Shown: positions 4,980 through 50,682 of the stretch, one piece after another
Layout: every line of letters begins with the position of its first letter
How positions within the stretch are numbered: position 1 is the first letter of the stretch
Assembly: GCF_900107415.1 (NCBI RefSeq)
Contig: NZ_FNPX01000011.1
Coordinates: forward strand, 1 to 64,000
Direction: 5' to 3'
DNA length: 64,000 bases
Source of the DNA: Jannaschia faecimaris
GTDB lineage: Bacteria; Pseudomonadota; Alphaproteobacteria; Rhodobacterales; Rhodobacteraceae
Translations under genes and position numbers: made by a program
Notes under the pieces: model-generated
The model's database searches: none
What the model saw: the letters and a program-made list of their open reading frames with translations, nothing else
Told to the model about the DNA's origin: nothing

Positions 4980-7900
4980 TCAGGCAGGCACTGACCTGGG
5001 CCTCGCGCCGATACGTACCACGACCGTTCTGGTACGCCCCTTCCCCGGATACTCGACAATTGACCCATCAATGCCACGGCCATCCACGATGATTTGGGCT
5101 TGGCCGTAACCGATATGATCCGCGTCCCCGATCTCGATTTCCAGCCGTCCAAGTTCACCTTCAAGCATGAACTCCGCCTGTCCCCAGTCTTTCGGCAGGC
5201 ACGGGTCCAGCCGCACGCCACCGGGCACCGGATGAACTCCAAGGATCCCTGAAACACCCAGTTGCCAGACCCAGCCGGCCGCGCCGGTATACCATGACCA
5301 GCCACCCCGACCGGTCTGCGCACCCGTTCCGGAGACATCGCCGGGTAGGACGTAGGGCTCGCGACGATAGTGATCGGCGGCTTCCCTTGTGCTGCTACGC
5401 CCGATTGGATTGATGATGTCGAACACCTGATACGCACGGTCGCCGTCCTTGATCTTGGCGTAGGCGGCACCAAGCCAAGCGGCGGCATGGGTATATTGCC
5501 CCCCATTCTCACGAACGCCGGGTGGATAGGCTTGAATGTATCCCGGATCACGGTGTGTCTGGTCGAAAGGCGGCGTAAGAAGCCGAATGAGCCGAGCCTC
5601 CTCATCGACGAGTTCCGTACCGGCCGACTTCAACGCGAGGCGCGCGCGCTCCCCCACCGGGCGGCCCGACAGAACCGACCAGGCCTGCGCAATGAGATCG
5701 ATCCGACATTCGTCATTTACAGACGCCCCCCACGGTACGCCATCATCGTCGAAAGCCCGCAAGTACCATTTGCCATCCCAAGCGTGCGCTTCCAGCGCCT
5801 CGGCAAGATCATCCGCGTGGGCCAGCCAACGGTCCGCGTCATCAGGATGCCCCGCCTGTCGTGCCAGTGGCGCAAAGAGACCGACCGTCGCAATTTGGAA
5901 CCACGCGAGCCAGACACTCTCGCCATGCCCCTTGTCCCCTACCCGATCCATGCCGTCGTTCCAGTCACCGCCGCCCATCAGCGGAAGACCATGTGAACCG
6001 GTGGCCATCATTCGATCCAGCGCGCGAGCACAGTGATCGAACAATGTGCCGGAGTCCCCGGTCTCAAAAAGTGCATATCGATCATGTTCCTCGGGCCGCA
6101 GTTCAGCGGCCCTGAGAAACGGAACTACTTCGTCGAGCAGCGCCAGATCGCCCGTCGCCTCGACATAGCGCGCGATGACATAGGGCAGCCAAAGATAGTC
6201 ATCCGAGCATCGGGTCCGCACGCCACGTCCCTCCGGTGGATGCCACCAATGCAGCACATCGCCTTGCTCGAACTGATATCCTGCCGCCCTGACGATTTGC
6301 CGACGCGTCCCGGCCGGGTCGCCGATCAGCAAGGCCAGAACATCCTGCAACTGATCGCGGAAACCATAGGCCCCACCCGCCTGATAGAAGCCCGCTCGCG
6401 CCATGATACGGCACGACCGGTTCTGGTAAGGGAGCCACTTGTTCAACATCAGATCAAATGATGGATCGGGGGTTTTGGCCTGAACTGCACCAAGCCGGCG
6501 CGTCCATTTCGCGCGCAACGCCTCGAAGGCGCGCTCTACCTCACCGGGGTCTTTCCACCTCTCGACACTCCCCCCCAGACTGGCGGGATCGGTAACCTCA
6601 CCCAATGCAAAGACAACCTCGGTGTGCCCACCAGCAGGAATATCCAGATGCACCTGATACGCCGCACATGCGTCTCCGCCTTTTGGAAAGCGGCCACCCA
6701 GATCCCAACGCCGCAGCCCTTCCGGAGCGGAGATATCGCCTTCTCGCCCAAGGAAATCATGCCGGTCGCCAGTGAGGCTGTGAGGGTCCGCCGAGGCAGT
6801 CAGGAAGGCCGCTCGCGACGCAAATTCAGCATTCCAGAGATTGCGACCGACGATGGCCTTCAGGTCCGCATCGTAACGGCTGACAACGTGGGGGCGGGAA
6901 ATGCTACCAAGCGCTCCCAACAACCATTCGGCATAAAAGGTGCCCGATATTCGTCGGTCCTGACCAGACCGGTTGGTAAGCCGCAGCCGGACCAACTTGA
7001 CCGGGGCGTCAGAGGGGACAAAGCACAGCAGATCCTGCTCCAATCCGTGACTGTGTTTGCGCCACCTGGTAAAGCCCATCCCATGCCTGATCTGGCAATC
7101 GGCTTCTTGGCCTGCCGGCTGCGGTGTCGTCGTCCAGACATCGCCATTGGCTTCGTCCCGAATATACAGGACTTCACCCGGCCGGTCGGCAACTGGGTCG
7201 TTCGACCAGGGTGTCAACCGATGTTCACCGCTGTTGATGCCCCAAGTCATCCCGAATCCGGCTTCGCTGACAAGACAGCCGAAATTTTCGTTGGCCAGGA
7301 TGTTGCACCAAGGGGCAGGCGTCCGCACGCCGGGTGCCAAGTGGATCAGATAGTCGCCGTTTTCCGGGTCAAACCCACCGTATCCGTTATCAAATTGCAG
7401 ATTGTCCGGCCTCTCGATGTCGGGGACCGGATCGTACTGAATCGACAGCCCCGGCTCGAATGGTGGCGGCTGATCCGAAGGCTCCAACGCCTTGTCCAGT
7501 ATTTCCCCAAGGCTCTGGCTCCCATCGTGAAGCACCACGTGAGCCGCCGCTTCAAGGCCGCGCCGCAGAGGTTCATCCATCTGGTCACCCGCCAGAAGGT
7601 GAATACCGCCGCGCATTCCCAGCATTCCCGTCGCGTGCGTGTCGCTGATTACAGAAAGGACCTTTTCCCGCAGGGGTTCTTCATAGCTGGTCGCAGCGTC
7701 CCTCAAGATAACCAGATCGATCTTCAGCCCGGCCTGGTGCCACAGACGGTGACCCCGCACCAGAACATCCAGAAGCGAAGAATTTTCCAGATCTGACAGT
7801 TCGAGCAACAGTATAGGAAGGTCCCCGGAAATCCCGAAACGCCAAAGATCCGACTGGCCGTTCCATCCGCTCGTATCCGTCATAGGAGCGGTTCGGAACG

Positions 7901-10900
7901 TCTGGTGCGTATGTAACAGCAAGGATGACAACACCTGCAGTTCTGGCAAATGCTCGGGGGCTATTCCAAGCTTCTGAACCTTGCGTACAGCCTCAAGCAA
8001 CGCATCCCGGAATGCGTGGTCGATAGTAGCAACAGGATATCGTTGCGCGACACGCAAACATTCATCACGCGATGCGCCCGCCACGGTCAGGAAGACGAGC
8101 TGCCTGCTCTCCATAGGCTGCAACGAGACCCGCACCTGAAGTGACATTACCGGATCCAGTGTCCACCCTGCCCCGTTGCCAAGACCGCGCTGCAAACCTT
8201 CTGGTGAGCTCAAGCTTCGATTGCGTCCCACAAAGCGGCGGCGATCCGTCTCATATGCCTTGACCATGTGACGCGTGTCGGTCGCTATCAGCTTGTGCAA
8301 CAAGACAGGTGGCCGGGCTTCCGGACGCCGAGGCCTGCGCGTGAACACCAGCGCATCTTCATCAGGCAGATAATCGCTTTGCACGAAGAGCTTGCTGAAG
8401 GCCGGATGGCGCTCGTCTTCCAAGGCGGGGGCCAAGACAACCTCTGCATATGTCGTCAAATCGATTGTCCGTTCGGCCTCGCCCTCATTGACCAGCGTGA
8501 TCCTCCGTATCTCCACGTCTTCGTGGGCGGCCACGGTCACATCCATCCGCGCCAGTATTCCATCGTGCCGCCGCAAGAGTTCGACCATGTGCTGATGAAA
8601 GACACATCGGGTTTCGGCTTCGGCATGTCCCGTCGGCGCAGCGCCAACCGACCACAAGTCACCCGTTTCAGCATCCTGAAGGTATATCCACATTCCGAAC
8701 TCGGTGCGCGTCGGGTCAGGTCGCCATCGCGTAAGGCTGCTATCCTTAAGACGAAGACCACCGCCACCGCTCTGCGTCAGCACCGATGACATGCGTCCAT
8801 TCCCCAGAATGTGCACCTGCGGCACGACCAGGCTGGACGACGGAATCCATGGTGCCAACTCTGGCACTTGATGCGTATCTGTGGCGTGGTCCCAGACCTC
8901 ACCGGCACGGCCGCTTTCAAGTGGAACATCCCACGGCACACGCTCCTGCAACAGCAGATCCATGGCCCGGACGGCTTTTTCCCTCAGGAAACGCCGAACC
9001 ATGATGTCATCCTGAAGAGCGTTGATGATTGCGGTTTGAACCATGCCCTGATGGTGCGCCATAAAGGCCGTCACTAAGACAAACTCGCGTCCGGGGCCGA
9101 CCCGGTCGGGCGTGAAATCAAGGGCTTCGACAAAGCCATACTCGGTGAGTGCGCCAATCTTACCAAGCGCGGCAAGGTTCTCGGCTGCCGCCTCAGGCCA
9201 GCCGCACAGCGCCAAGGCCGAGCCATAGGGCGCGATGACAAGATCATCGGTAAGCCCTCTGCGGATCCCGAGACCGGGCACACCAAAGGCGCGATATTGA
9301 AAGGTTCCGCGCGCATCCACCGTGCCGAACGCAGATTCGGAGATGCCCCACGGCACACCCCGTTCCCGGCAATATGCACGCTGGAAGTCCACGGCGGTCA
9401 ACTCGCTCTCTCCCAACAGCGTATCGCGAAAGCTGGGCAGGAAAAGCGGTGGCATCAGGTACTCGAAAATCGACCCGTTCCACGACAGGATCGAAGGTTT
9501 GCCCTGAAGCCGCGTGATCGGCCGGCTGAACGCGAACCAGTGTTCGATGGGCGCGTCATGTTTGGCGATTGCAAAATAACTGGCCAAGCGGGCCTCGGTC
9601 GCCAAAAGATCGTAATGGCTGGTGTCCATCTTCCCAAGGCTTTGGTTATAGCCGATCCAGAACAAGCGCGCGGACGTGTCGTACAGAAACTGGAAGTCCA
9701 TACTGAACGCCAACCGGTCGGCATTGCCGGCCAACTCGCCGAGGGATGCGCGCAATGCGTCTTGCTGGGCTAACCCCAACTGCGCCGACCGCCGCAGTTC
9801 ATCCACCCATTTCCCGGTGGCGCTGCACGCATCGGGGTTAGCTGTGTGCCAATCTGCAAGAATTTTAATAAGCCGTTCCCCCGAGACCGCCTCATCAATC
9901 GAGGACACATCTGATGTCAGGCTTTCAGAAATCTCGTGGGCTATCGACGCAACCGAATCCGGGCAATTCTCGATCACGTCCAGCCAGGGCATAAATGTCT
10001 CGATGTCGCGAACGATTGCATGCAGATCGTGGTGGAACCGTTCCAGCCATGTGGTAATTTCTGCTGCCTGCTCATTCGAAAGATCAGGCGAATTTTCGAT
10101 CGCATCCAGGGCGTGCCTTTCGAGCGCCTGCCAGTGCTGCCCCCCGAGAGCCGATAAACCAGCCTTCAGTCGCATCGGCGATGCCACGGTAAATGCAATT
10201 TCTTCGCGAATGGCCCTCTCGCTCCGGCTCAAATCCGAAAGGCTCTGACCGGGCACGTCGCGGAGTGCCATGCATAAAAGATCCAGCGCGACCTCAAGGC
10301 TTTTGAAACTCGCCGCCTCAATCACCGGACGCTCGACCAGTTCGAGGCAACCCTGCTTCAGCGCGATCAGAGATACCGCCAGATTGCCGCTGTCGACGGT
10401 CGAGACGTAGCAAGGTTCCAGCGGCTCCAGCGTGCGAGTGTCATACCAGTTCAGGATATGACCGCGATACATGGTCACCTGCCCCAGCGTGTCGAGGGTG
10501 TTGCGACAGCGTGCGACGAGGTCGCTTGTCGTGATAAAGCCCATGTCACGCGCACCCAGGGCCGACACAAGGAACATGCCAATGTTGGTCGGTGATGTCC
10601 GGTGTGCGACCTCCGACATTTCGCCGAACTGATAATTGTCGGGCGGCAGCCAATGATCATCCGGCCCTACGAAGGTTTCGAAGAAATGCCAGGTACGCCG
10701 CGCAACCTGGGTCAGGAACCTGCGCTGAAGCTTGCTGAGGGACTGCGTGCGGAAATAGCGTGGCCGTGCGCTCCAGACTGACAACTCCGGCGCGATCAGC
10801 CAGAGAATGAGCACGGGAACAGCGGGCCAGATCGCCTGAGGATCAAAGAGCGCCAGGTGCCCCGCCATCAACACAGCGAGCACGGACGAGGGCCACATCA

Positions 10901-13436
10901 ATTGCCAGGATGCCTTTCGGATGCTGCCCCGAGAGTACTTCGCCGACGAATGAGCCGCTGAGGTCCATTCCAACCGGTTTCGGCCGCTAACGCAGACGCG
11001 CCAAAGCGTGCTTAAAATCGCATCCAATGCAATCAGCGTGTCGCTGACCAGAAATGCGATGCTAAGAAACCAACGCCCCCCGGTCGCTCGGATATTGTGG
11101 ATTGCATTGCCGAGTGCGCCGCGCCGGATCCCACCTGTTGCGATGGCGAAAACTTCACCGATCAGATAGCTTCCGGGGGCCGCAAGTGCCAACGCCGTCC
11201 AGATCAGCCCGCTGCCGGGCATGAGCAGCCAACCGCAAAGGAAGAACAGCAACAATGCAGGCGACATTAGGCTGCGGCGCAGGTTGTCGACGATTTTCCA
11301 ACGATCAAGCGCCGACATCGTTGCATCCATTTTCCCGGCCGCCGTTGGCACCCTGCGCCCTAGCCATGGGATAAGCTGCCAGTCTCCGCGCATCCAACGG
11401 TGCTGACGAGCGGCAAATTCAGGATATGTCGCAGGCAGGTCTTCGTAGAGAACGAGGTTGCTGACCAGCGCAGCCCGCCCATGAAGGCCTTCGAACAGGT
11501 CGTGACTAAGGATATGGTTCTCCGGCACGCGGCCTGACATGCTTTGATGGAGGGCGGCGATATCATAAATGCCCTTTCCCACGTAAATGCCGGTTCCAAA
11601 CAGATCCTGATAAACGTCGGACACGGCCCGGCTATAGATGTCGATGGCGGTGTCCCCGCCGTAGAGATGCGTGAAATGTGTCCCTTTTCCGAGCGTTGGC
11701 AGAATTTCAATCCGTGGCTGCAAAATGGCATGACCCGACACAACCCGTCGGCTTTCAGGGTCGACGACCGCCCTGTTCAGCGGATGTGCCAGAATTCCGA
11801 CAAGGCGTGCCGAAGATCCGGGTGGCAATTGTGTATCTGCATCCAGCGTGATCGCATATCGAGTGCCATGCAGGGTATCGACCGGCCCCGCGACCAAATC
11901 GAACGCCTGCCTGCCCTCACCCAGAACATAACGATTGAAGTCCTCGAGCTTGCCGCGCTTGCGCTCCCACGCCATCCAGCATCCCTCGACCGGATTATGC
12001 CGACGGCGGCGATGCAATAAAATGAACGGCGGCCCGGCATCCGAGAGATAGCGGCGGTTGAGGTCCTCGATCCTATTTCGCAATTCGGCTTCGATGCCTG
12101 CGTCTTCGGGCATGACCTCGGACTCGGCGTCGGAAAGATCCGACAGGACGACAAATCGAAACGCCGGGTCCGGATTCGCAATGCGCAGTATTTCGATTTT
12201 TTCCGAGATCACATCCAGGTCTTCACCGGGTGCAATTATGACCGGTATCACGACGGCTGTTGCACAGTCCTGCGGTATGGCCTTGGAGAAATCCATCTCG
12301 GGCAATGCGCTTGGTTGGCTCAGGCGCGTAATCATCCAATGCCCGAACCAAACGCTGGGGATCGTTGCCGGCAGAAACGAAAGCGCAAGGCCGGCGATCC
12401 ATTGGCCAATCGTCGCATCCTTGACCCAAAGATAGACCACCGGCACGCAGATCGCCGCGACCACCAGCGTGATGAGCCCTGCGGCGTAGAGCGCACCCTT
12501 GTATCTCGACAATCCGCGTCGAACTGCCAAGAACCACGCGGTCCGGCACTTCAAGACGACCTCTAACGCCGCTAGCCCGTCGCCAATCAGCCAGTATCCG
12601 ACGTGAAATCTGTCTGTGCCGACGTTTTCGTTTTGGGCCAAGGCGATCGCATGGCGTGCAATTGCGGATTCCGAACTGTCACAACGCCACGCCAATTCTT
12701 CGACAATGCGCCGATACCGATTGCGGGTTTCGAACGTCATACGGGGGTATATTTCGGAGGGATCTGCTGCCAGTGCCGCTTCGATGCAACTGACTTCGTC
12801 AACGAAGTCCGGCCATTTGATTGCATCGACAATGATTAGGTTGGATATTGCTTTGGCAATGCGGTCGACAGGCAGGCCATCGCTCGCGGCATGGGTTTCG
12901 GCGCTCAGCTCCACCGGCGGCAACAACCTCGGTTCTATCGCACCAACCGCATCGATGAAACGCTCAAGGCATGTCAGCCGAAGCATGGACGGCATCGCCC
13001 ACAGTTCGGCGTTCGTCAGTTCCGCCGTCTTTTGATATTGAGTGGTGAATTGCGTCAACGCTTTCAGCGTGATCTGTGGCTCCAATCCATCGAAGACGGC
13101 CTGCGACACCGCGAATATGCGCGGAGTTCCTGCGCCTTGCAGGCCTGCGATCCCCGGAAGCCTATCATAGAACTTGCGCGGCAAATTTTCGTTCAAGCGT
13201 CGCAGGGCACGGATGATCTGATAGTCATTGTCCAGAATCCACTCGGCCGCCCGTGCGTGATCCGGGTGCGGATCGGCGCAATAGAGGCGGACCTCCTCGA
13301 ACCAGTCATTCAGCGTGGGCAGGGCACGATAGAGATCGATCAAGGCAGGCAAACCCTTAGCAATCGGGTGATGCAGTCCCGCGACGTCCAGTCCAAGCTT
13401 GCCATCAGCCGAGGTTCGGGCGGACTCTTTCATCAA
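4980..13436 (-). CDS. ndvB: Cyclic beta-1,2-glucan synthase
   Basis: A giant 2818-aa inner-membrane enzyme that makes periplasmic cyclic beta-1,2-glucans from UDP-glucose, close in length to Brucella Cgs and Sinorhizobium NdvB (about 2830-2870 aa). Order of parts: a helical N-terminus; two membrane segments around residues 310-375; the GT84 glycosyltransferase with the D-x-D site TLDADTQ near 530 and RQHRW (Q-x-x-R-W) near 680; further membrane segments near 720-780 and 860-890; a glycoamylase-like middle; and a C-terminal GH94 phosphorylase-like region with GGGDWNDGMD near 2490. The GH94 part controls ring size in characterised homologues. Its start overlaps the stop of the upstream Usp gene by 4 bases (ATGA), so the two are translationally coupled. 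Homologues are also called chvB or cgs. Confidence 0.95.
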   Translation of the reverse strand: MMKESARTSADGKLGLDVAGLHHPIAKGLPALIDLYRALPTLNDWFEEVRLYCADPHPDHARAAEWILDNDYQIIRALRRLNENLPRKFYDRLPGIAGLQGAGTPRIFAVSQAVFDGLEPQITLKALTQFTTQYQKTAELTNAELWAMPSMLRLTCLERFIDAVGAIEPRLLPPVELSAETHAASDGLPVDRIAKAISNLIIVDAIKWPDFVDEVSCIEAALAADPSEIYPRMTFETRNRYRRIVEELAWRCDSSESAIARHAIALAQNENVGTDRFHVGYWLIGDGLAALEVVLKCRTAWFLAVRRGLSRYKGALYAAGLITLVVAAICVPVVYLWVKDATIGQWIAGLALSFLPATIPSVWFGHWMITRLSQPSALPEMDFSKAIPQDCATAVVIPVIIAPGEDLDVISEKIEILRIANPDPAFRFVVLSDLSDAESEVMPEDAGIEAELRNRIEDLNRRYLSDAGPPFILLHRRRRHNPVEGCWMAWERKRGKLEDFNRYVLGEGRQAFDLVAGPVDTLHGTRYAITLDADTQLPPGSSARLVGILAHPLNRAVVDPESRRVVSGHAILQPRIEILPTLGKGTHFTHLYGGDTAIDIYSRAVSDVYQDLFGTGIYVGKGIYDIAALHQSMSGRVPENHILSHDLFEGLHGRAALVSNLVLYEDLPATYPEFAARQHRWMRGDWQLIPWLGRRVPTAAGKMDATMSALDRWKIVDNLRRSLMSPALLLFFLCGWLLMPGSGLIWTALALAAPGSYLIGEVFAIATGGIRRGALGNAIHNIRATGGRWFLSIAFLVSDTLIALDAILSTLWRVCVSGRNRLEWTSAAHSSAKYSRGSIRKASWQLMWPSSVLAVLMAGHLALFDPQAIWPAVPVLILWLIAPELSVWSARPRYFRTQSLSKLQRRFLTQVARRTWHFFETFVGPDDHWLPPDNYQFGEMSEVAHRTSPTNIGMFLVSALGARDMGFITTSDLVARCRNTLDTLGQVTMYRGHILNWYDTRTLEPLEPCYVSTVDSGNLAVSLIALKQGCLELVERPVIEAASFKSLEVALDLLCMALRDVPGQSLSDLSRSERAIREEIAFTVASPMRLKAGLSALGGQHWQALERHALDAIENSPDLSNEQAAEITTWLERFHHDLHAIVRDIETFMPWLDVIENCPDSVASIAHEISESLTSDVSSIDEAVSGERLIKILADWHTANPDACSATGKWVDELRRSAQLGLAQQDALRASLGELAGNADRLAFSMDFQFLYDTSARLFWIGYNQSLGKMDTSHYDLLATEARLASYFAIAKHDAPIEHWFAFSRPITRLQGKPSILSWNGSIFEYLMPPLFLPSFRDTLLGESELTAVDFQRAYCRERGVPWGISESAFGTVDARGTFQYRAFGVPGLGIRRGLTDDLVIAPYGSALALCGWPEAAAENLAALGKIGALTEYGFVEALDFTPDRVGPGREFVLVTAFMAHHQGMVQTAIINALQDDIMVRRFLREKAVRAMDLLLQERVPWDVPLESGRAGEVWDHATDTHQVPELAPWIPSSSLVVPQVHILGNGRMSSVLTQSGGGGLRLKDSSLTRWRPDPTRTEFGMWIYLQDAETGDLWSVGAAPTGHAEAETRCVFHQHMVELLRRHDGILARMDVTVAAHEDVEIRRITLVNEGEAERTIDLTTYAEVVLAPALEDERHPAFSKLFVQSDYLPDEDALVFTRRPRRPEARPPVLLHKLIATDTRHMVKAYETDRRRFVGRNRSLSSPEGLQRGLGNGAGWTLDPVMSLQVRVSLQPMESRQLVFLTVAGASRDECLRVAQRYPVATIDHAFRDALLEAVRKVQKLGIAPEHLPELQVLSSLLLHTHQTFRTAPMTDTSGWNGQSDLWRFGISGDLPILLLELSDLENSSLLDVLVRGHRLWHQAGLKIDLVILRDAATSYEEPLREKVLSVISDTHATGMLGMRGGIHLLAGDQMDEPLRRGLEAAAHVVLHDGSQSLGEILDKALEPSDQPPPFEPGLSIQYDPVPDIERPDNLQFDNGYGGFDPENGDYLIHLAPGVRTPAPWCNILANENFGCLVSEAGFGMTWGINSGEHRLTPWSNDPVADRPGEVLYIRDEANGDVWTTTPQPAGQEADCQIRHGMGFTRWRKHSHGLEQDLLCFVPSDAPVKLVRLRLTNRSGQDRRISGTFYAEWLLGALGSISRPHVVSRYDADLKAIVGRNLWNAEFASRAAFLTASADPHSLTGDRHDFLGREGDISAPEGLRRWDLGGRFPKGGDACAAYQVHLDIPAGGHTEVVFALGEVTDPASLGGSVERWKDPGEVERAFEALRAKWTRRLGAVQAKTPDPSFDLMLNKWLPYQNRSCRIMARAGFYQAGGAYGFRDQLQDVLALLIGDPAGTRRQIVRAAGYQFEQGDVLHWWHPPEGRGVRTRCSDDYLWLPYVIARYVEATGDLALLDEVVPFLRAAELRPEEHDRYALFETGDSGTLFDHCARALDRMMATGSHGLPLMGGGDWNDGMDRVGDKGHGESVWLAWFQIATVGLFAPLARQAGHPDDADRWLAHADDLAEALEAHAWDGKWYLRAFDDDGVPWGASVNDECRIDLIAQAWSVLSGRPVGERARLALKSAGTELVDEEARLIRLLTPPFDQTHRDPGYIQAYPPGVRENGGQYTHAAAWLGAAYAKIKDGDRAYQVFDIINPIGRSSTREAADHYRREPYVLPGDVSGTGAQTGRGGWSWYTGAAGWVWQLGVSGILGVHPVPGGVRLDPCLPKDWGQAEFMLEGELGRLEIEIGDADHIGYGQAQIIVDGRGIDGSIVEYPGKGRTRTVVVRIGARPRSVPA

Positions 13437-43058: not shown

Positions 43059-44237
43059 TCATCGCAGCAAGTCGAACTCCGACATGTCCCGGCCCGTCGA
43101 CCGGGCAAGATCCTCGATCGAATCGTAGAGCAGCTCCAGCGCATAATGCGGGTTGTGCACGTGGATGCCGGGGTCTGCCTTGACGAACTTCCAGTTGTAG
43201 ATCGCCTTGAGCAGGCGCGGCGTGAAAGCCGTGTAGGAAGTTGCCCGCCCCCCTGCTTCATCCGCAAGACCGTCGGCATTGGCATCATTGAAGAAATAGG
43301 GATAACGCGCACCGTCATAGATGATCGACGTGCCCGCGACCTGCACCGCGTAATCCTCGATCAACGACATCAGAAGCGTGGCATTCACGTCGATGTCATG
43401 GAAAATACCCTGCTTGGTGTCACCGCTGCCATCGTAACTTTGGCGCGAGATCCGGATGGCCTTGGCATCGTCGGACATATGACACGTCAGGCAGGTGTCC
43501 GTCGCGACCTCAAGGCTGTGCGGCTCATGACAGGATACGCAGGTCGCCACCGGCTTTGCATGGTTGAAACGCCCGGAGTAGGTCTTGCCCGGATATTGAT
43601 ACCCAAGCTGGCCGTAGCCCCCGAGGTTCGTCGCCGCGGCGATATTGTAGTGCGGATTGATGAACCGCAGGTCCGCGTCGGGCCGGTCATCGTCCAATCC
43701 GTCCACCGCTGCATTGACGCTCGCACCGCTTGCGCGGCCTTGGTGGCATGTGACGCAAGAGGCCTCACCGCCCCGCACCGGGTGCATCGCGCCGGTCGGC
43801 AGCGCGATCTCGGTGATCCGGGCCATCCCTTCGTTGTGACAGGTTTCGCAATCGACGACGCCACCCACCGGGAACGGATCTTCGGACATGCCCTTGGGGC
43901 TGCCGTCCAGGTCGTGAAACGCGCGAAACCCCTCGCCCGAGTGACAGGTCGCGCAAGCGGCCGGAATCTTGCCCTCCTCATCCCAGTGGGTGAACGACTC
44001 CGACGTGGCGTCGGCATGGCCCGACCGTGCCCAGGCGGCGATTGCCGTCGCATTGGGGATGGAAATGCTTTCGGGCGCAAACGGCCCGCTCTTTGGCATC
44101 GTGAACATCGGCTCAACGGGTGCCTGGGGGGCTTCAACCTGTTGGGATTGGCCGCGACGCGGCTCAATGCTCATCCCGACCACGAAAAGCGTGGCAAACG
44201 TCGAAACAAACAGGAATGCCTTGGTCGAACGATGCAT
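43059..44237 (-). CDS. Pentaheme c-type cytochrome, divergent from nqr
   Basis: A 392-aa exported protein with one hydrophobic N-terminal segment (residues 7-22), which may be a signal or an uncleaved anchor. Five CxxCH heme motifs lie at residues 95-99, 130-134, 161-165, 233-237 and 249-253. Extra His residues (SGHAD, NPHYN, HEPHS) could be distal ligands. The last 140 residues have no heme motif and are unrecognised. It shares the promoter gap with nqrA, so it is probably a periplasmic or membrane-attached electron carrier tied to the NQR-like complex. An electron acceptor or donor role is inference from position. Confidence 0.88.
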   Translation of the reverse strand: MHRSTKAFLFVSTFATLFVVGMSIEPRRGQSQQVEAPQAPVEPMFTMPKSGPFAPESISIPNATAIAAWARSGHADATSESFTHWDEEGKIPAACATCHSGEGFRAFHDLDGSPKGMSEDPFPVGGVVDCETCHNEGMARITEIALPTGAMHPVRGGEASCVTCHQGRASGASVNAAVDGLDDDRPDADLRFINPHYNIAAATNLGGYGQLGYQYPGKTYSGRFNHAKPVATCVSCHEPHSLEVATDTCLTCHMSDDAKAIRISRQSYDGSGDTKQGIFHDIDVNATLLMSLIEDYAVQVAGTSIIYDGARYPYFFNDANADGLADEAGGRATSYTAFTPRLLKAIYNWKFVKADPGIHVHNPHYALELLYDSIEDLARSTGRDMSEFDLLR

Positions 44238-44307
44238 TTCTTAAACCAGTGCTGTCTATTGATGCGATCTTGACGATACGGTTACTGTGAAAGCCAAGGG
44301 ATGTTCA

Positions 44308-44321
44308 TTGTTCTGGATCAA
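44308..44321. promoter_or_regulatory. Weak FNR-type box between the pentaheme cytochrome gene and nqrA
   Basis: TTGTTCTGGATCAA has one mismatch to TTGAT-N4-ATCAA. It is 71 bases upstream of the cytochrome start and only 40 upstream of the nqrA GTG, so class II spacing would suit the cytochrome better. No strong -10 is visible. Confidence 0.35.
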
Positions 44322-44360
44322 TTCTCGGTCGTGAACCCCATTTCGGGCGGAGAGACGTCA

Positions 44361-45638
44361 GTGCTTTGGACGCGCCAGACAGGTTTGACCCTCGATCTCG
44401 CCGGCCCCGCGCCACAGGCCCGGGCCACGATTGAGACATTGATAACCGATGAAGCGGCCCTGAGCGCCTCGGCCGACCAAGACCTGCGGGTGACGATGCT
44501 GGTCAAAGACGATCAGCTGGTGGCGCAGGGCGCACCGATCCTTGAATTGCGGCATCAACCCGGCATCGTCTTCACTGCGCCGATGGCCGGACGCATTGCC
44601 GCTATTGACTTGGCCCCCGGAAGGCGATTGTCCGAGGTCCGGCTCTTCCGGGAGGACGCCGCCGGGCGGCACGAACATGCCACGACCCATGCTCAGGCCA
44701 GTGACGCTGCACTGCGCGAGCTGTTGCTCCAAAGCGGCCTATGGCGCGCGTTCAGGTCGCGTCCATTCGGTGGGCTGCCGAATCCCGACACTGTGCCCTC
44801 GGCGATCTTCGTGGCAGGGCTGGACACCCGGCCACTCGCTCCCGATCCCGCGTTGGCGGTGCGCGACCGGGAGGAACACATCGCGCGCGGCGTCGCGCAG
44901 CTTTTGCGCCTTACGAATGGCCCGGTCTTCCTGTGTCAGGAAATGACCGGTGCGGATCTGTTTGCCGACGCTGCGCGCAAGGACCGAATTCGTGACTTGC
45001 GGGTACCGGCCATCCATCCATGGGGGCTGCCGGGGTTTCTGGCACACAGGCACCAACCCGCCACGATCACGAGGCCGGTGTGGGACATTCACGTTGAGGA
45101 TGTGGCCGCAATCGGCGCGCTGCTGGCGACCGGCCTAGGCCCCGAGACACGCCTGATCTCCGTCGCTGGCCCGGCCACGACCGAGGCGCGGCTGGTACGG
45201 TGCCAGCCGGGTGCGGATCTGCGTGGCCTTTGCCGTGGCCGCGTCGTGCATGGGCCACACATCGTACAGACAGGTTCGCCACTCGACGCGCGCCCGGCCC
45301 GCTGGCTGGGCGCACGGGACAGGCAAGTCACCGTGATCCACGGCGCGCCCCCCGCACGACCCCGCCACTGGCTGATTGCCGCACTCAGGCGCGGAGCGCG
45401 GCCGCATCCCATCATCCCGACCGCCGCCGCCGACCGGGCCTTGGGCGGAGCGATGCCCACAATGGCTCTGCTGCGCGCCTTGGCCGTCGGCGACCGGGAG
45501 ACGGCAATTCGCCTGGGTGCATTGTCGTTGGTCGGAGAGGATCTGGCCCTTGCAGACTACCTGACCTGCGCAGAGCCACGTCATTCCACCCTGCTTGAGA
45601 AGATACTGCACGACATCGCCGAGGAGGAAGCACCATGA
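44361..45638 (+). CDS. nqrA: NQR complex subunit A
   Basis: A 425-aa peripheral subunit of the Na+-translocating NADH:quinone oxidoreductase. The start aligns as MLWTRQTGLTLDLAGPAP with the MIKIKKGLDLPIAGAPE opening of known NqrA. RSRPFGGLPNPDTVPSAIFVAGLDTRPLAPDP, HPWGLPGFLAH and MPTMALLRALAVGDRETAIRLGALSLVGEDLALADYL match family stretches from memory. I choose GTG 44361 with GGCGGAG upstream; an ATG at 44301 adds 20 unrelated residues and has no spaced ribosome site. RnfC is excluded by the absence of 4Fe-4S CxxCxxC motifs. First gene of nqrABCDEF-apbE. Confidence 0.9.
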   Translation: MLWTRQTGLTLDLAGPAPQARATIETLITDEAALSASADQDLRVTMLVKDDQLVAQGAPILELRHQPGIVFTAPMAGRIAAIDLAPGRRLSEVRLFREDAAGRHEHATTHAQASDAALRELLLQSGLWRAFRSRPFGGLPNPDTVPSAIFVAGLDTRPLAPDPALAVRDREEHIARGVAQLLRLTNGPVFLCQEMTGADLFADAARKDRIRDLRVPAIHPWGLPGFLAHRHQPATITRPVWDIHVEDVAAIGALLATGLGPETRLISVAGPATTEARLVRCQPGADLRGLCRGRVVHGPHIVQTGSPLDARPARWLGARDRQVTVIHGAPPARPRHWLIAALRRGARPHPIIPTAAADRALGGAMPTMALLRALAVGDRETAIRLGALSLVGEDLALADYLTCAEPRHSTLLEKILHDIAEEEAP

Positions 45639-46411
45639 TCCGTGGGCTCTGGGATCGGGAGATGGTTGCCTTGCTTCTGGTATGTGCGATCCTGCCGGTC
45701 GCGGTGACTTGGCTTCTGACAAACGGCTGGCCCGCCGCGACGCGTCTGTTGCTGTGCGCGCTCTGCATCGGCGCGTGGCAACTGGTCTGGATGCTGGCGC
45801 GGGCGCAACCGCCCTCTACGGCCGCCCTGATCACGGCGATCGCCGTTGCGATCCTCGCCCCCGAGAACCTTGGACTCCTGCCGCTGCTTCTGGGCGTGAG
45901 TTTCGGGATCGTGTTCGCGGAGCTGGCTTTCGGCGGATGGGGGCGAAATATCCTTAACCCGGCGACCGTCGCCCTGGCCTTTCTGGGGTTCGGCTTTCCG
46001 GCCTTTCCTTGGCCCGAGGTGCCGATCCAACTGGGGTGGGCCGCGATCCCCGCCGTGCTGATCGCGGTCGTGTTCGGAATTGCCCGGATACGTATGGTTC
46101 TGGGGGCAGTTCTGATTTTCGCACTGACGATTTATGTGTTTCCCGACGTTTCGACAATCTGGCCCGCCGTGCTTGTCGTCTTCGCCCTTCTGGTGATGGA
46201 CCCGGTTGCCAGCGCCTCGACGCCGCCGGGGGCTTGGGTGAACGGTGCGCTGTATGCGGGGTTGGTCGTGCTGTTTCACGCGACGATGGACGCGGCGACT
46301 CCGGCTCAGATCGCGGTCTCAGCGGCGCTTCTCGTTTCCCTCGCCGTGCCACTGGTGGATGAAATCGCTGTCGCGCTCTGGGTGTATGGAAGGAGGCGCA
46401 AACTTGGCTGA
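45635..46411 (+). CDS. nqrB: Shortened NqrB-like membrane subunit lacking the FMN-attachment segment
   Basis: A 258-aa polytopic protein; known NqrB is about 410 aa. LLLGVSFGIVFAELAFGGWGRNILNPATVALAFLGFGFP matches the NqrB stretch with FGGTG-(R/K)-NFLNPAL, and FALLVMDPVASASTPPGAWVNGALYAGL matches the late ATDPVSAS-(x)-GKW region. About 100 N-terminal residues and the loop with D-G-(Y/F)-SGAT that binds FMN on Thr are missing: PAFPWPEVPIQLG leads straight into the next helix. The frame is continuous, so this is not a frameshift. The start overlaps the nqrA stop (ATGA). It should be the membrane core, but with fewer cofactors. Confidence 0.85.
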   Translation: MIRGLWDREMVALLLVCAILPVAVTWLLTNGWPAATRLLLCALCIGAWQLVWMLARAQPPSTAALITAIAVAILAPENLGLLPLLLGVSFGIVFAELAFGGWGRNILNPATVALAFLGFGFPAFPWPEVPIQLGWAAIPAVLIAVVFGIARIRMVLGAVLIFALTIYVFPDVSTIWPAVLVVFALLVMDPVASASTPPGAWVNGALYAGLVVLFHATMDAATPAQIAVSAALLVSLAVPLVDEIAVALWVYGRRRKLG

Positions 46412-47204
46412 GCTGAACCCGATATCCGCCTGGAAGCGACTGCTCGCATTGCCGAATGAAAGCCGCACCAAGACACTTGTCGTGGCTTTCCTGCTGTCGA
46501 CAATCTGCGCGGCACTGGTGACGACCGCGACTGTCGTTCTGCGCCCGATTCAGGCCCAAAACCGAGCGGCAGAGGAGCAGATCCGGCTGGAGCAGCTCCT
46601 TTCCTCCACCCCGGGCATGTCCGAAATCGTGGCCGGGTCCGACGGCGGCACATTGTCGTCCGTGGTGGTTGACCTCGCCGAGGGACGGGCCGCAGCTGAC
46701 TTGGGGTCGGCCACCGTTCAGGCCGCGCTCGACGATCCGGGCAACTGGACCCAGCTTGCACCGGAGGATGATATCGCGGGCATCGGGGCACGGCCCGACA
46801 TCGCCCAGGTCTTCATCCTGCGCGATCAGGACCGGGTGTCCCTGTTGATCCTGCCGATCATCGGCGCGGGATACAACGGACCGATCCGGGCGATGCTTGC
46901 GCTCCGGGGCGATATGAACACGATCGCCGGGATAACGTTCACCGATCATTCGGAGACCCCCGGTCTTGGTGCCCGGATCGCGGAGGAAGCGTGGCAGGCC
47001 CGGTTCGCGGGCAAACAGTTGGTCGATGCTTCCGGGTCCCTGCGCTTCGAAGTGACACGTGGGGCGGCCAATACCCATTACGAAGTCGACGGCATCACCG
47101 GCGCGACCCGCACCAGCAACGCGATCACGCGGATGGTCCGGTTTTGGGTCGGACCGTTGGGTTACGGCCCGTTGATCGACGCGGTCCAGCGCGGGGAATT
47201 CTGA
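46404..47204 (+). CDS. nqrC: NQR complex subunit C (flavinylated)
   Basis: A 266-aa subunit with one N-terminal helix (TLVVAFLLSTICAALVTTATVVL) and a periplasmic FMN-binding domain. The covalent-FMN motif DGITGAT lies at residues 229-235, with Thr235 the predicted attachment site, the target of ApbE. GYNGPIRAMLALRGDMNTIAGITFTDHSETPGLGARI is the family hallmark. The start is a TTG with AGGAGG 7 bases upstream, overlapping the nqrB end by 8 bases. It is the only flavinylated subunit visible, because nqrB lacks its motif. Confidence 0.92.
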   Translation: MAELNPISAWKRLLALPNESRTKTLVVAFLLSTICAALVTTATVVLRPIQAQNRAAEEQIRLEQLLSSTPGMSEIVAGSDGGTLSSVVVDLAEGRAAADLGSATVQAALDDPGNWTQLAPEDDIAGIGARPDIAQVFILRDQDRVSLLILPIIGAGYNGPIRAMLALRGDMNTIAGITFTDHSETPGLGARIAEEAWQARFAGKQLVDASGSLRFEVTRGAANTHYEVDGITGATRTSNAITRMVRFWVGPLGYGPLIDAVQRGEF

Positions 47205-47207
47205 GCG

Positions 47208-47873
47208 ATGGCCGCGTCCGCGCGATATTGGACACGCCTGACCGAGCCGCTCGTGCGGCAGAACCCCGTCACGCTGCAAATCCTGGGCATCTGTTCGGCA
47301 CTGGCCGTGACCACGACGCTCGACACGGCGTTGACCATGTCCGCCTCACTGATCGTCGTGATCGTGGCCTCGGCCGGGATCGTCAGTCTGATCCGTCGCC
47401 ACATCCCCTCCACGATACGGCTAATCGTCCAAATCGTCATCGTCGCCTCGCTGGTCATTGTGATCGACCAGTTTCTGCAAGCCTTCTTCTTCGACATCAG
47501 CCAGCGGCTGTCTGTCTATGTCAGCCTGATCACCACGAACTGCCTGGTTCTGGGCCGGACGGAGTCTTTCGCACGCAACAACCCGCCGCTGGTGTCGATG
47601 ACTGACGCGCTTGGCAATGGGCTTGGCTATGCACTGGTCCTCACGATCATGGGCGCGGCGCGCGAACTCTTCGGCACCGGGCGACTGCTGGGGCAACAGC
47701 TTCTGCCGACGATCGAACAGGGCGGTTGGTTCCAGCCGCTGAACCTGATGCTGCTGGCCCCGAGCGCCTTTTTCCTGCTGGGCGGGCTGGTCTGGATCGT
47801 CCGTTCGATCTGGCCCGAACAGGCCGAGCCGGAGGACTTCGTCGCCCCGAACGTCGGGGAACCGGGGCCATGA
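47208..47873 (+). CDS. nqrD: NQR complex subunit D
   Basis: A 221-aa membrane subunit: RQNPVTLQILGICSALAVTT with Cys29, and ITTNCLVLGRTESFA with Cys112, the same positions as in Vibrio NqrD. These residues bind part of the iron centre shared with NqrE inside the membrane. The later GNGLGYALVL, MGAARELFGTGRLLG and PLNLMLLAPSAFFLLGGLVW also match the family. It starts 3 bases after nqrC. Its full conservation shows that the complex is an NQR and not an RNF. Confidence 0.95.
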   Translation: MAASARYWTRLTEPLVRQNPVTLQILGICSALAVTTTLDTALTMSASLIVVIVASAGIVSLIRRHIPSTIRLIVQIVIVASLVIVIDQFLQAFFFDISQRLSVYVSLITTNCLVLGRTESFARNNPPLVSMTDALGNGLGYALVLTIMGAARELFGTGRLLGQQLLPTIEQGGWFQPLNLMLLAPSAFFLLGGLVWIVRSIWPEQAEPEDFVAPNVGEPGP

Positions 47874-48481
47874 GCGATCTGGCGGATCTGTTCTTCTGGG
47901 CGATGTTCGTCGACAATATGCCTCTGACCCTGTTCCTGGGGCTTTGCACCTTTCTGGCCCTGTCCCGAAGGCCAGATTCGGCGCTTGGCCTCGGCGTTGC
48001 AATCACCGTCGTTCTTGGCATCACGGTTCCGCTCAACAACCTGATCTACAGCGCTTTCCTTGCCCCCGGCGCGCTGTCTTGGGCCGGATATGGTTCGCTG
48101 GATCTGTCGTATCTGTCGCTGATCGCGTTTATCGGCGTGATTGCAGCTGTCGTGCAGTTGGTTGAAATGCTGCTCGACCGCTTCCTGCCGCGCGTGCATG
48201 CGTCTTTCGGGGTCTTTCTGCCGCTTCTGACGGTGCAATGCGCGATCCTCGCCGGCAGCCTGTTCATGGTCGAGCGGCGCTACGATTTCGCGGAATCGCT
48301 CGTCTTCGGCCTGGGCAGCGGGGCGGGCTTTGCCCTCGCCGTCGTGCTGCTGGGCGCGCTTCGGGGGCGGCTTGCCTATGCTGACATTCCAGATGGGCTG
48401 CGGGGCCTCGGCGTCGCCTTCGTTCTGACCGGTCTCATGTCCCTCGGCTTCGCGGCTTTCGCTCAGATGGTGGCCACATGA
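47870..48481 (+). CDS. nqrE: NQR complex subunit E
   Basis: A 203-aa membrane subunit, pseudo-symmetric to NqrD. FVDNMPLTLFLGLCTFLAL holds Cys26, and LPLLTVQCAILAGSLFM holds Cys124, the partners of NqrD Cys29/Cys112 in the intramembrane iron-sulfur site. LPDGLRGLG-type stretch (IPDGLRGLGVAFVLTGLMSLGF) closes the protein. The ATG overlaps the nqrD stop (ATGA). Length and helices match known NqrE. Confidence 0.95.
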   Translation: MSDLADLFFWAMFVDNMPLTLFLGLCTFLALSRRPDSALGLGVAITVVLGITVPLNNLIYSAFLAPGALSWAGYGSLDLSYLSLIAFIGVIAAVVQLVEMLLDRFLPRVHASFGVFLPLLTVQCAILAGSLFMVERRYDFAESLVFGLGSGAGFALAVVLLGALRGRLAYADIPDGLRGLGVAFVLTGLMSLGFAAFAQMVAT

Positions 48482-49698
48482 TCGAGGTTGCGATCGGAAC
48501 CCTTCTGCTAACCCTGCTGGTCATGGCCTTGGCGATAGGGCTTCTGGCCGCGCGCCGCGGGCTGATCCCGCAGGAAAACATGATCGTAACGGTAAATGAC
48601 ACGATGCGAATTGACGCCGCGCGCGGCGACACCTTGCTGTCGGCCCTGCAGGGGGCGGGCGTGGCGGTTCCGGCGGCCTGCGGTGGCAAGGGCACCTGCG
48701 GACTTTGCCGCGTGGCTGTAACCGGCGACGGTGCCGGCGTGCCGGTCGCAACGGAGCGGGGCATCCTGTCTCCGTCGGAACGCCGGGATCATGTGCGGCT
48801 GGCCTGCCAGGTCAGCCTGCGCGGCGCAGTCGACGTGTCGGTGGCAGCCGGTATCCTGGAGGCCGAGAGCATCGCCTGCCGGGTTCTGTCCAACAGGATG
48901 CTTGCCCCCCTTATCCGGGAGTTGGTGTTGGCCCTGCCTGACGGAACGAAACTTGACTTCATTGCCGGCAGTTTCATGCAACTTAACGCGCCAGCGTTCG
49001 ACCTAGACTTTTCCAGTCTCGACATTCCCACACCGTATGAGGAGGCGTGGCGGATTGCAGGTTGGACCGATCTTTCCGTCCGGTCCGACACGCCGGTCAC
49101 CCGCGCCTATTCCATCGCAAACCGGCCCGAAGACACCGAAAAACTGGTATTCAACATCCGTCTTGCGGTTCCCCCCGCCGGGCAGGAGGGAGAGGTGCCT
49201 CCGGGCATCGTTTCGTCCTACCTGTTCAGCCTTGAAAATGGTGACACCGTTAGCGCCGCCGGCCCCTTCGGTGACTTCCGGACACAGCCAACGGATAAGG
49301 ACATGGTCCTCATCGGCGGCGGCGTCGGAATGGCACCGCTGCGCGCCATGATCCACGAACAGATCGGACAGGGCACCGGGCGGCGTATGTTCTACTTCTA
49401 CGGCGCGCGGACCCGCGCCGACCTGTTCTATGTCGATGAGTTCGATACAATCGCGGCCAGTCACGAAACGTTTTCCTGGACCCCTGCCCTGTCTGATCCG
49501 GCCCCCGGTGACCGTTGGACAGGCGAGACGGGCTTCATCCACGAGATTGTTTACAGGCACTTGTCCACACACCCCGCTCCGGAGGACTGCGAATATTATC
49601 TGTGCGGGCCGCCGGTCATGATCTCCGCCGTCAGGTCCACGCTTGAGCGTCTGGGCGTGGAACGCAGTTCTATTTTCAACGATGACTTCGGGACCTGA
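48478..49698 (+). CDS. nqrF: NQR complex subunit F (NADH dehydrogenase, 2Fe-2S and FAD)
   Basis: A 406-aa electron-entry subunit, the standard NqrF length. An N-terminal membrane helix (TLLLTLLVMALAIGLLAARRG) is followed by a plant-type 2Fe-2S domain with Cys68, Cys74, Cys77 and Cys110 (ACGGKGTCGLCRV ... RLACQV), an FAD domain (TRAYSIANRPED) and an NADH domain (GGGVGMAPLRAMIHEQ, YYLCGPPVM). The ATG overlaps the nqrE stop (ATGA). Its completeness argues that the complex takes electrons from NADH as usual. Confidence 0.95.
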   Translation: MIEVAIGTLLLTLLVMALAIGLLAARRGLIPQENMIVTVNDTMRIDAARGDTLLSALQGAGVAVPAACGGKGTCGLCRVAVTGDGAGVPVATERGILSPSERRDHVRLACQVSLRGAVDVSVAAGILEAESIACRVLSNRMLAPLIRELVLALPDGTKLDFIAGSFMQLNAPAFDLDFSSLDIPTPYEEAWRIAGWTDLSVRSDTPVTRAYSIANRPEDTEKLVFNIRLAVPPAGQEGEVPPGIVSSYLFSLENGDTVSAAGPFGDFRTQPTDKDMVLIGGGVGMAPLRAMIHEQIGQGTGRRMFYFYGARTRADLFYVDEFDTIAASHETFSWTPALSDPAPGDRWTGETGFIHEIVYRHLSTHPAPEDCEYYLCGPPVMISAVRSTLERLGVERSSIFNDDFGT

Positions 49699-49701
49699 GC
49701 C

Positions 49702-50682
49702 ATGACAATCACACGCCGAAATTTCACCACTCTGTGTGGCACCGCCGCAGTCTGCGCCCTCTCCGGGGCGTCCCGCGCAGCCAGCCCTCCTTCCATAGCG
49801 GTATTGAACGACCAGGCCTTCGGCACGACGTGGCAGGTTCTTGTGCCCGCCACTGCCGACCTGTTCGCGATCAGGTCGGACATCGATGCAGTGCTGACGC
49901 TGGTGGACAATCAGATGTCGCCTTGGCGGCACGACAGCGACATCTCACGGTTCAACCGTGCAGCGGCGGGGCGGCATACCCTGCCGCCCGAAACGTTGAA
50001 GGTCACGCGCGCCGCCTTGGACATTGCCCGGCAAAGCGACGGGGCATTCGACCCGACTGTCGGCCCCCTTGTTGCGCGGTGGGGTTTCGGCCCGATCAAG
50101 GGAGACAGCAAGCCGGACTGGTCCGCCCTTACCCTGTCCCAGACGGCATTGGAGAAGGCGCGCACCGGCCTCACCCTTGACCTCTGCGGCATTGCAAAGG
50201 GGCGCGCATTGGACCTGATCGCCGACAGATTACGGAGCGCCGGCCTGACCACCTTCCTGATCGACATCGGTGGCGAATTGCTAGCGGCCGGTCGGCACCC
50301 CGACGGTCGCCGTTGGCGCAGTGGTATCGAGGATCCACGGCAGTATGTGACAGAACTGGTGGGCGTCTTGGAACTGCAAGAGTTCGCCGTCGCCACCTCC
50401 GGCACGCGGTGGAACTCCGTTCAAGTCGGCAACCGCCGTTTAAGCCATATCATCACCCCATCGGCACGACACCCGGTGCCCGAGCCGCTGGCACAGGTCT
50501 CGGTCATCGCGCCGAGTGCCATGATGGCCGACGGGTGGGCGACCGCGCTGATGGCGGCGGGTGAAGAAAAGGGCGTGGAACTGGCCCGAAGCCACGGGAT
50601 CGCGGCGCTGTTCCTGATCCCCGCTGGCGGCGCGCTGCGGCGGATCGCGACCGGGGAATTCGATGATCACGTTCTGTCCTGA
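49702..50682 (+). CDS. apbE: FAD:protein FMN transferase ApbE
   Basis: A 326-aa periplasmic enzyme that transfers FMN from FAD to the Thr of D-G-x-(S/T)-GAT motifs. N-terminal signal MTITRRNFTTLCGTAAVCALSGASRAAS has an RR motif. The domain shows DNQMSPWRHDSDISRFNRA, GAFDPTVGPLV, LDLCGIAKGRALD and FLIDIGGELLAAG, then SHIITPSARHPV, all ApbE hallmarks. It starts 3 bases after nqrF, so the operon carries its own flavinylating enzyme. Here the visible substrate is NqrC Thr235. Confidence 0.94.
   Translation: MTITRRNFTTLCGTAAVCALSGASRAASPPSIAVLNDQAFGTTWQVLVPATADLFAIRSDIDAVLTLVDNQMSPWRHDSDISRFNRAAAGRHTLPPETLKVTRAALDIARQSDGAFDPTVGPLVARWGFGPIKGDSKPDWSALTLSQTALEKARTGLTLDLCGIAKGRALDLIADRLRSAGLTTFLIDIGGELLAAGRHPDGRRWRSGIEDPRQYVTELVGVLELQEFAVATSGTRWNSVQVGNRRLSHIITPSARHPVPEPLAQVSVIAPSAMMADGWATALMAAGEEKGVELARSHGIAALFLIPAGGALRRIATGEFDDHVLS

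Follow-up and report, generated by a model that had tools for sequence, protein, structure and literature searches.

The locus examined here raises the question of where electrons go in a relative of an NADH-driven sodium pump whose route back to quinone appears to have been dismantled. The window, a stretch of 64,000 nucleotides of Jannaschia faecimaris (assembly GCF_900107415.1, contig NZ_FNPX01000011.1, positions 1–64,000, forward strand), encodes a relative of the sodium-pumping NADH:quinone oxidoreductase (NQR) with an unusually short NqrB subunit and, divergently from it, a multihaem cytochrome c. In an ordinary NQR, electrons pass from NADH through flavin adenine dinucleotide (FAD) and a 2Fe-2S cluster in NqrF, a 2Fe-2S cluster in NqrD/E and a flavin mononucleotide (FMN) in NqrC on the periplasmic side to the FMN and riboflavin of NqrB, and from there to ubiquinone (PMC10643135; here and below, cited work is represented by excerpts of the papers). 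We propose, with a probability of about 0.6, that the complex is an NQR-derived NADH:periplasmic multihaem-cytochrome oxidoreductase. Many marine bacteria carry this pump relative, with one cofactor site lost, beside a five-haem cytochrome, which suggests that the electrons are sent outside and not to quinone.

A shortened NqrB in a complete nqr operon

Open reading frames together with Pfam and NCBIfam matches give the order nqrA-nqrB-nqrC-nqrD-nqrE-nqrF-apbE at 44301–50682 on the forward strand, with all six nqr genes present. The first-pass annotation had described an NqrB without its FMN-binding loop in an otherwise complete operon, and this description holds: nqrB (45635–46411, +; 258 amino acids, assigned by PF03116 and alignments) is intact and lies between nqrA and nqrC, overlapping nqrA by four bases (nqrA stop at 45638) and also overlapping nqrC (TTG start at 46404). 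Relative to the ordinary NqrB of locus L066, a member of the same bacterial family that served as the reference for gap positions, 44 residues including the FMN loop are gone after window residue 128; the junction, at about residue 128/129 (46017–46022, +), lies where ordinary NqrB has these 44 extra residues with the FMN-binding Thr. Further gaps comprise 4, 10 and 3 residues (14 of them in a later loop). The annotation had also reported about 100 missing N-terminal residues; the loss is real, but it is not a single N-terminal block, since 45 residues are gone ahead of helix I and 40 between helices I and II, with helix I itself kept.

The window NqrB matches PF03116 over residues 11–124 (E 1.9e-16) and has no NAD-binding PF00175 domain fused to it. 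The NCBIfam NqrB model scores it better than the RnfD model (6.1e-16 versus 4.5e-10), at 58 bits against a cut-off of 414 bits. An identity as RnfD was rejected on this difference and because NqrD, NqrE and NqrF exceed the NQR cut-offs. A sequencing gap or frameshift hiding an SGAT loop is refuted: the frame is open and overlaps nqrA, and the same shape recurs in many separate genomes and assemblies, among which we collected 103 distinct short NqrB sequences (mostly from Rhodobacterales, some from Hyphomicrobiales), none with the FMN Thr. Nor did searches with PF03116 and with the protein itself find a second NqrB/RnfD, full-length or otherwise, in the J. faecimaris genome, which is 99.95% complete and in 48 contigs, leaving a slight chance of a gap.

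The short form is conserved

The scan of named species retained the best 80 of 143 loci; all counts of named loci given here refer to this set, which is biased to close relatives and overlaps in part with the family genomes described below. These loci belong mostly to Rhodobacterales (e.g. Aliiroseovarius) and also to Hyphomicrobiales (e.g. Martelella), the latter including Nitratireductor, Pelagibacterium and Shinella, which we take to be members of that order. All eight genes (cytochrome, nqrABCDEF and apbE) are held by 68 of the 80, and apbE was not seen in the fetched stretch of seven (L073, L074, L077, L085, L086, L091 and L092). Within the family, 76 of 295 genomes match the window NqrB, and 36 of these have the short form: 35 match at E <= 9.4e-18 (contig ends truncate two of them, G159 and G245), and G107 matches at 6e-11. 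The resulting division into 36 and 259 genomes is a manual reading of the match table. The remaining matches fall within longer frames, almost always 400–450 amino acids in length, mostly around residues 40–125, and two genomes (G099 and G125) carry both types. As the annotation had suggested, we looked for short NqrB genes held between nqrA and nqrC, and found this arrangement in 32 of 34 loci, the others being L057, which runs into a contig end, and the decayed L062.

Among 385 genomes of the class, strong full-span matches occur in the window genome, G294 and G409; among 398 genomes of the phylum, strong matches (E < 1e-50) occur in at least five, and those listed all belong to the same family. 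Nineteen genomes outside the family with a weak single match were re-examined and gave no strong full-span match. In eighteen of them the match covers the model incompletely: 17 have it in a single half or split between the two halves, mostly in frames of 350–390 amino acids, as RnfD would, and G674 has it at positions 84–247. G585, an ambiguous case, matches at positions 8–240 (E 1.5e-6) in a frame of 360 amino acids.

Short NqrB is thus a conserved form. That it should be a decaying relic, in a complex that is non-functional or only structural, is very improbable: three loci do look broken (L126, L062 and L203), against which stand 103 different sequences with open frames, many of whose positions are invariant, and the 68 complete named loci. 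As separate observations, the module copies in L126 and L062 (genome G013) are decayed and accompanied by transposase or integrase genes, the pentahaem cytochrome gene of G013 is in pieces, and L203 (G994) is a decayed short copy with an NqrB–NqrC fusion frame. In L177 (G409), which reads nqrBCDEF-apbE-CBS, the nqrA position is taken by an alanine dehydrogenase gene. The module is also present, with a frame-changed NqrC, in L128, a record titled Marinicella sp. W31; Marinicella is a gammaproteobacterial genus, which poses a question of transfer or naming.

Which cofactor, quinone and ion sites remain

We compared 112 aligned NqrB rows (80 named, 17 close and 15 distant, some genomes being in two sets; L057, L062, L065 and L071 were left out), using Vibrio cholerae NqrB numbering and residue roles taken from the V. 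cholerae structures (PMC10643135, PMC9325719). The position of the FMN-binding Thr236 is a gap in all 112, which bears out the earlier claim that electron flow must skip the NqrB FMN. Glu157, the cytoplasmic Na+ entry of NqrB according to the excerpted structures (PMC10643135, PMC9325719), is kept in none of the 97 named and close rows, and Asn156 in none of the 112. The D52 position is Asp in 49 of the 80 named rows and in the window NqrB, and the periplasmic Glu of the proposed Na+ path has no conservation, the alignment there being uncertain. The N-terminal stretch of NqrB has been described as binding quinone-site inhibitors (PMC9325719) and as being recruited by quinone (PMC10643135); in the window NqrB this region is lost with the 45 residues ahead of helix I. 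Together with the absence of Glu157, this loss supports the alternative offered by the annotation, a different quinone or ion route. The gate residue Phe342 is found in 3 of 80 named, 0 of 17 close and 14 of 15 distant rows, and Phe338 in none of the 17 close rows but in 14 of the 15 distant ones.

The riboflavin ligands are largely retained among the 80 named rows: G198 in 80, N200 in 77, N203 in 67, A205 in 78, D346 in 76 (Glu in 3 more) and T162 in 64 (Ser in 10 more). All have counterparts in the window protein (T67, G103, N105, N108, A110 and D189), which may still bind riboflavin. A shortened NQR could then still reduce quinone, with electrons passing from the NqrC FMN directly to the NqrB riboflavin and on to quinone, and the cytochrome as a side partner. 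Retention of the ligands and of Gly141, a residue linked to ubiquinone (56 of 80 named rows), speaks for this, as does a proposal made for two-subunit Nqr/Rnf-like complexes, on which the idea is based: there, a membrane domain without the FMN site would exchange electrons directly with a nearby extracytosolic FMN (PMC11334425, in the passages available). We nevertheless consider it unlikely. The missing N-terminal residues are the very region bound by quinone-site inhibitors and recruited by quinone, only 3 of the 80 named rows retain Gly140 and changes at Gly140/141 are reported to abolish the ubiquinone interaction of NqrB (PMC4014512, in part), and the 15 distant members keep N200 in only 3 and N203 in only 5 rows. 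Quinone reduction would also leave the near-constant presence of a cytochrome, described below, unexplained.

On the outward side, NqrF (48478–49698, +; TIGR01941, 409.8 bits, over cut-off) has 2Fe-2S, FAD and NADH domains, and its cluster Cys patterns are present in 78 of 78 named rows. NqrD (47208–47873, +; TIGR01939 over cut-off) has Cys29 and Cys112, NqrE (47870–48481, +; TIGR01940 over cut-off) has Cys26 and Cys124, and these four positions are Cys in 79 of 79 rows; the cysteines that the annotation had assigned to the Fe-S clusters of NqrD/E/F are accordingly retained. The same is true of the DGITGAT flavinylation motif that it had noted in NqrC (46404–47204, +; PF04205 4.5e-19, TIGR01938 over cut-off), which lies at 47088–47108. 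Among the 80 named NqrC rows, 73 have the regular pattern, one has EGITGAT, three end in Ser, one has a changed frame and two are cut by contig ends. The three with Ser for Thr (DGITGAS; L092, L098 and L106) raise the question whether ApbE flavinylates Ser. The flavin transferase gene apbE (49702–50682, +; PF02424 1.3e-70) encodes the sole ApbE found in the J. faecimaris genome, as would be expected if NqrC remains an ApbE substrate. NqrA (44301–45638, +) is divergent in sequence, matching PF24836 (5.6e-32) and PF05896 (2.9e-10) and falling under the NCBIfam cut-offs.

Judged by sequence, then, the outward half of the complex is intact (NqrF FAD and 2Fe-2S, NqrD/E 2Fe-2S, the covalent FMN site of NqrC, and ApbE) and the inward half is damaged, lacking the NqrB FMN segment, the N-terminal quinone-site stretch and Glu157.

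A pentahaem cytochrome beside nqrA

Divergent from nqrA lies a gene that the annotation had not mentioned (43059–44237, −), encoding a 392-amino-acid pentahaem cytochrome c with five CXXCH motifs (Pfam Cytochrom_CIII/Cytochrome_C7), and it offers a likely destination for electrons that bypass the NqrB FMN. Its start resembles a signal peptide, and the protein is predicted to be periplasmic. In 30 aligned homologues the five CXXCH motifs and His 74, 84, 196, 226, 240 and 361 are invariant; in a set of 59 rows (the window and 58 named) five of the six extra His are invariant and His84 is kept in at least 90%. Five CXXCH motifs and six extra conserved His would suffice for bis-His ligation of all haems, which points to a role in electron transfer. 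A search of solved structures with this cytochrome gave weak matches only (best E 0.25).

The association of the two genes is close. In 77 of the 80 named loci a cytochrome gene with exactly five CXXCH motifs adjoins nqrA divergently, at a median gap of 115 bases (starts chosen by hand), and a signal-peptidase-like site, by a rough pattern, is present in 70 of these 77 proteins. As to the other three loci, L088 and L108 start close to the end of a contig, and in L126 a transposase (PF13610) occupies the nqrA position. Among the family genomes, the cytochrome occurs in 32 of the 36 with short NqrB (the copy in G013 being decayed) and in 14 of the 259 without it (Fisher p 1.6e-27); genomes scored as lacking it include four with weak matches (E 1e-4 to 7e-4) and G012, whose match (1.2e-9) lies on a different contig. 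In the fetched stretches (6.7–12 kb) of 23 ordinary nqr loci, no multihaem gene was found (0 of 23; p 4.9e-20), the threshold being at least two CXXCH for L066–L070 and at least three for L188–L206; the decayed short copy L203 was left out of this control. Chance neighbourhood was rejected on the named loci and the family-genome association. In two of the four family genomes that have short NqrB and no pentahaem protein, another haem protein is encoded divergently from nqrA: in L055 a tetrahaem c3, and in L050 an EB_dh protein that bears a single CXXCH.

The cytochrome also occurs apart from short NQR, in 15 places (14 genomes without short NQR, and a second copy in G047). At 11 of these, the divergent neighbour carries Ferric_reduct, FAD_binding_8 and NAD_binding_1 domains in 486–581 amino acids (starts chosen by hand) and is, by these domains, predicted to be a flavocytochrome of the NADPH oxidase (NOX)/ferric-reductase type. 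Members of this family carry NAD(P)H electrons outward across the membrane. Two unrelated machines thus occupy one slot beside one cytochrome family, and the presence of a ferric-reductase-like gene in that slot suggests that the usual partner of the cytochrome is a transmembrane NAD(P)H oxidoreductase.

These observations also bear on a reverse device, in which the periplasmic cytochrome would gather electrons and the complex drive them uphill to NAD+ with the ion gradient. In its favour, RNF-type machines are described as reversible (PMC12174285, PMC11889175, from excerpts), and a cluster of Na+/H+ exchanger genes (PF00999, one member Pfam-checked) is represented near 19 of the 80 named loci (e.g. 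L078:5192–6358), on the strand of the cytochrome gene in 17 of the 19; in L057 the exchanger gene lies downstream of apbE. The outward direction of electron flow in the family that shares the cytochrome slot speaks against such a device, as does the absence of Glu157, part of the proposed NqrB Na+ path, from all 97 named and close rows, and we regard it as improbable.

A proposed path from NADH to the periplasm

With the outward half whole and the inward half crippled, the FMN of NqrC would probably be the natural donor to the neighbouring cytochrome. In the NADH:cytochrome oxidoreductase that we propose, NADH would reduce NqrF, and the electron would cross via NqrD/E to the NqrC FMN at the periplasmic face. 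From there it would, as we judge somewhat better than even, be handed to the pentahaem cytochrome and not to an NqrB FMN, and the cytochrome would carry it on to a periplasmic acceptor, so that it would not return to quinone. NqrB may be kept to dock NqrC and perhaps to hold riboflavin for it; any remaining ion pumping would more likely take place at the NqrD/E switch. The direction of the electrons, their final acceptor and ion pumping are what we infer from this arrangement of sites and genes.

Several observations weigh against this proposal. Gene neighbourhood is not contact, and the riboflavin ligands of NqrB are retained in the close clade as if the inward flavin still worked. Two genomes with short NqrB lack the pentahaem cytochrome and show no substitute, L049 having a SelO gene and no haem gene divergent from nqrA and L057 running off its contig; L177 has no adjoining nqrA, and its closest multihaem gene, a tetrahaem C7-type, is about 1.9 kb upstream. 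Four of the 15 places with the cytochrome alone (L161, L167, L168 and L170) have no ferric-reductase-like gene: in L161 (5866–9585) the genes of a nonahaem protein (Cytochrome_cB, MtrC/F-like) and of a cytochrome of the b561 type form one run with that of the pentahaem cytochrome, L167 has a DctP neighbour, and L168 and L170 have nothing telling.

If the proposal is correct, the complex would be an unnoticed outlet for NADH electrons to the periplasm in Rhodobacterales and, to our knowledge, the first bacterial NQR that feeds a multihaem cytochrome. Where NQR and RNF pump ions is disputed, between NqrB/RnfD and the NqrD-E/RnfA-E switch (PMC12174285, in part), and the dispute could be tested directly on a naturally occurring, conserved complex that has neither the NqrB FMN nor the quinone-site stretch nor Glu157. 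We advance only tentatively the stronger idea that it is a natural NQR minus the return half-circuit, an NADH-to-pentahaem-cytochrome pump moving Na+ (or H+) by NqrD/E and NqrC alone; such a pump would set the outward movement of electrons apart from their passage through NqrB, and so reveal which of the two steps drives pumping.

Relation to known systems

As far as the excerpts allow comparison, the complex resembles the ordinary NQR of V. cholerae (PMC10643135, PMC9325719) in its nqrABCDEF order, in the cofactor sites of NqrF, NqrD/E and NqrC, in apbE and in the NqrB riboflavin ligands. It differs in that no NqrB FMN segment, N-terminal quinone stretch, Glu157 or NqrM was found and in its divergent pentahaem cytochrome. 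With the two-subunit Nqr/Rnf-like complexes, for which one-way NAD(P)H electron flow to the outside has been proposed, it shares an NqrB/RnfD-like domain without the flavinylation Thr and an FMN_bind partner (PMC8238504, PMC11334425, both in part); unlike them, it has six separate subunits with NqrD/E and NqrF, and an NqrB without an NAD-binding domain.

The closest parallel is the MmcA-RNF of Methanosarcina acetivorans, in which a multihaem cytochrome is encoded with an RNF/NQR-type pump and is proposed, in the sections available, to accept electrons from the RNF subunit that bears the FMN on the outside (PMC11024163, PMC4023990). The likeness lies in gene context and proposed role: that system is archaeal and ferredoxin-driven, its MmcA is heptahaem and encoded in the same operon, and it has RnfB and RnfC, in place of which the operon described here has NqrF and NqrA. 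Some archaeal RNF clusters are without an MmcA-type cytochrome (PMC9012536, from an excerpt). The ferric-reductase/NOX-like flavocytochromes, which at 11 of the 15 places take the divergent position next to this cytochrome family, differ in being single polypeptides with a Ferric_reduct membrane domain and no PF03116 match.

In the portions of the open-licence PubMed Central literature available to us, we found no description of a short NqrB or of an NQR with a multihaem cytochrome, in line with the annotation, which knew of none. This has to be narrowed in one respect, since loss of the FMN site itself is known from two-subunit Nqr/Rnf-like complexes (PMC11334425, in part) and so has a precedent.

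Origin and flanking genes

In a tree of NqrD, NqrE and NqrF from 51 selected genomes, short and ordinary NQR fall apart with ultrafast bootstrap (UFBoot) support of 100 (the trees used 30 short and 21 ordinary rows, L128 having been dropped for odd lengths), and identity over these proteins is 50% between the groups and 62% within the short group. Rooted with RNF, the NqrD/E tree places the short clade inside ordinary NQR (support 98 for the short clade and 95 for short plus L196); this rooting relies on a long RNF branch (1.56), and the deep branches were not examined individually. Subject to that long branch, we rejected an FMN-less form older than ordinary NQR. The nesting implies an FMN-bearing NQR as the probable ancestor, from which the short form would have arisen by losing the FMN and acquiring a haem partner; which of these two events came first is not fixed, because the cytochrome-bearing subgroup has support of 72 in one tree and is absent from the other. 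The nearest ordinary relative, G649 (L196), has the FMN loop and no multihaem gene, and is flanked upstream by a Na+/H+ exchanger gene and downstream by apbE followed by a CBS-pair gene. A CBS-pair gene cluster likewise follows apbE in 54 of the 80 named loci (e.g. L072:13419–13808; one member Pfam-checked), and we pose as a question whether this protein is a nucleotide sensor of the complex. Clustering of neighbours gave two further clusters, present in 14–15 named loci; every other cluster occurred in 6 loci at most.

Among 17 genomes with FMN-bearing NQR, all but G852 and G649 gave an NqrM match (15 of 17), against 0 of 20 genomes whose only NQR is the short one; with a model of only 43 positions the test is weak and the meaning of this absence uncertain. 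As the Cys are kept and no NqrM was found in the window genome, another factor may build the NqrD/E cluster.

Complex I is indicated in the window genome by NuoD, and short NQR is therefore probably not its sole NADH dehydrogenase. Elsewhere in the window, positions 4980–13436 (−) encode a 2818-amino-acid protein of the cyclic beta-1,2-glucan synthase kind, in which glycosyl hydrolase 94 domains are accompanied by a glucoamylase-like match and a weak glycosyltransferase match.

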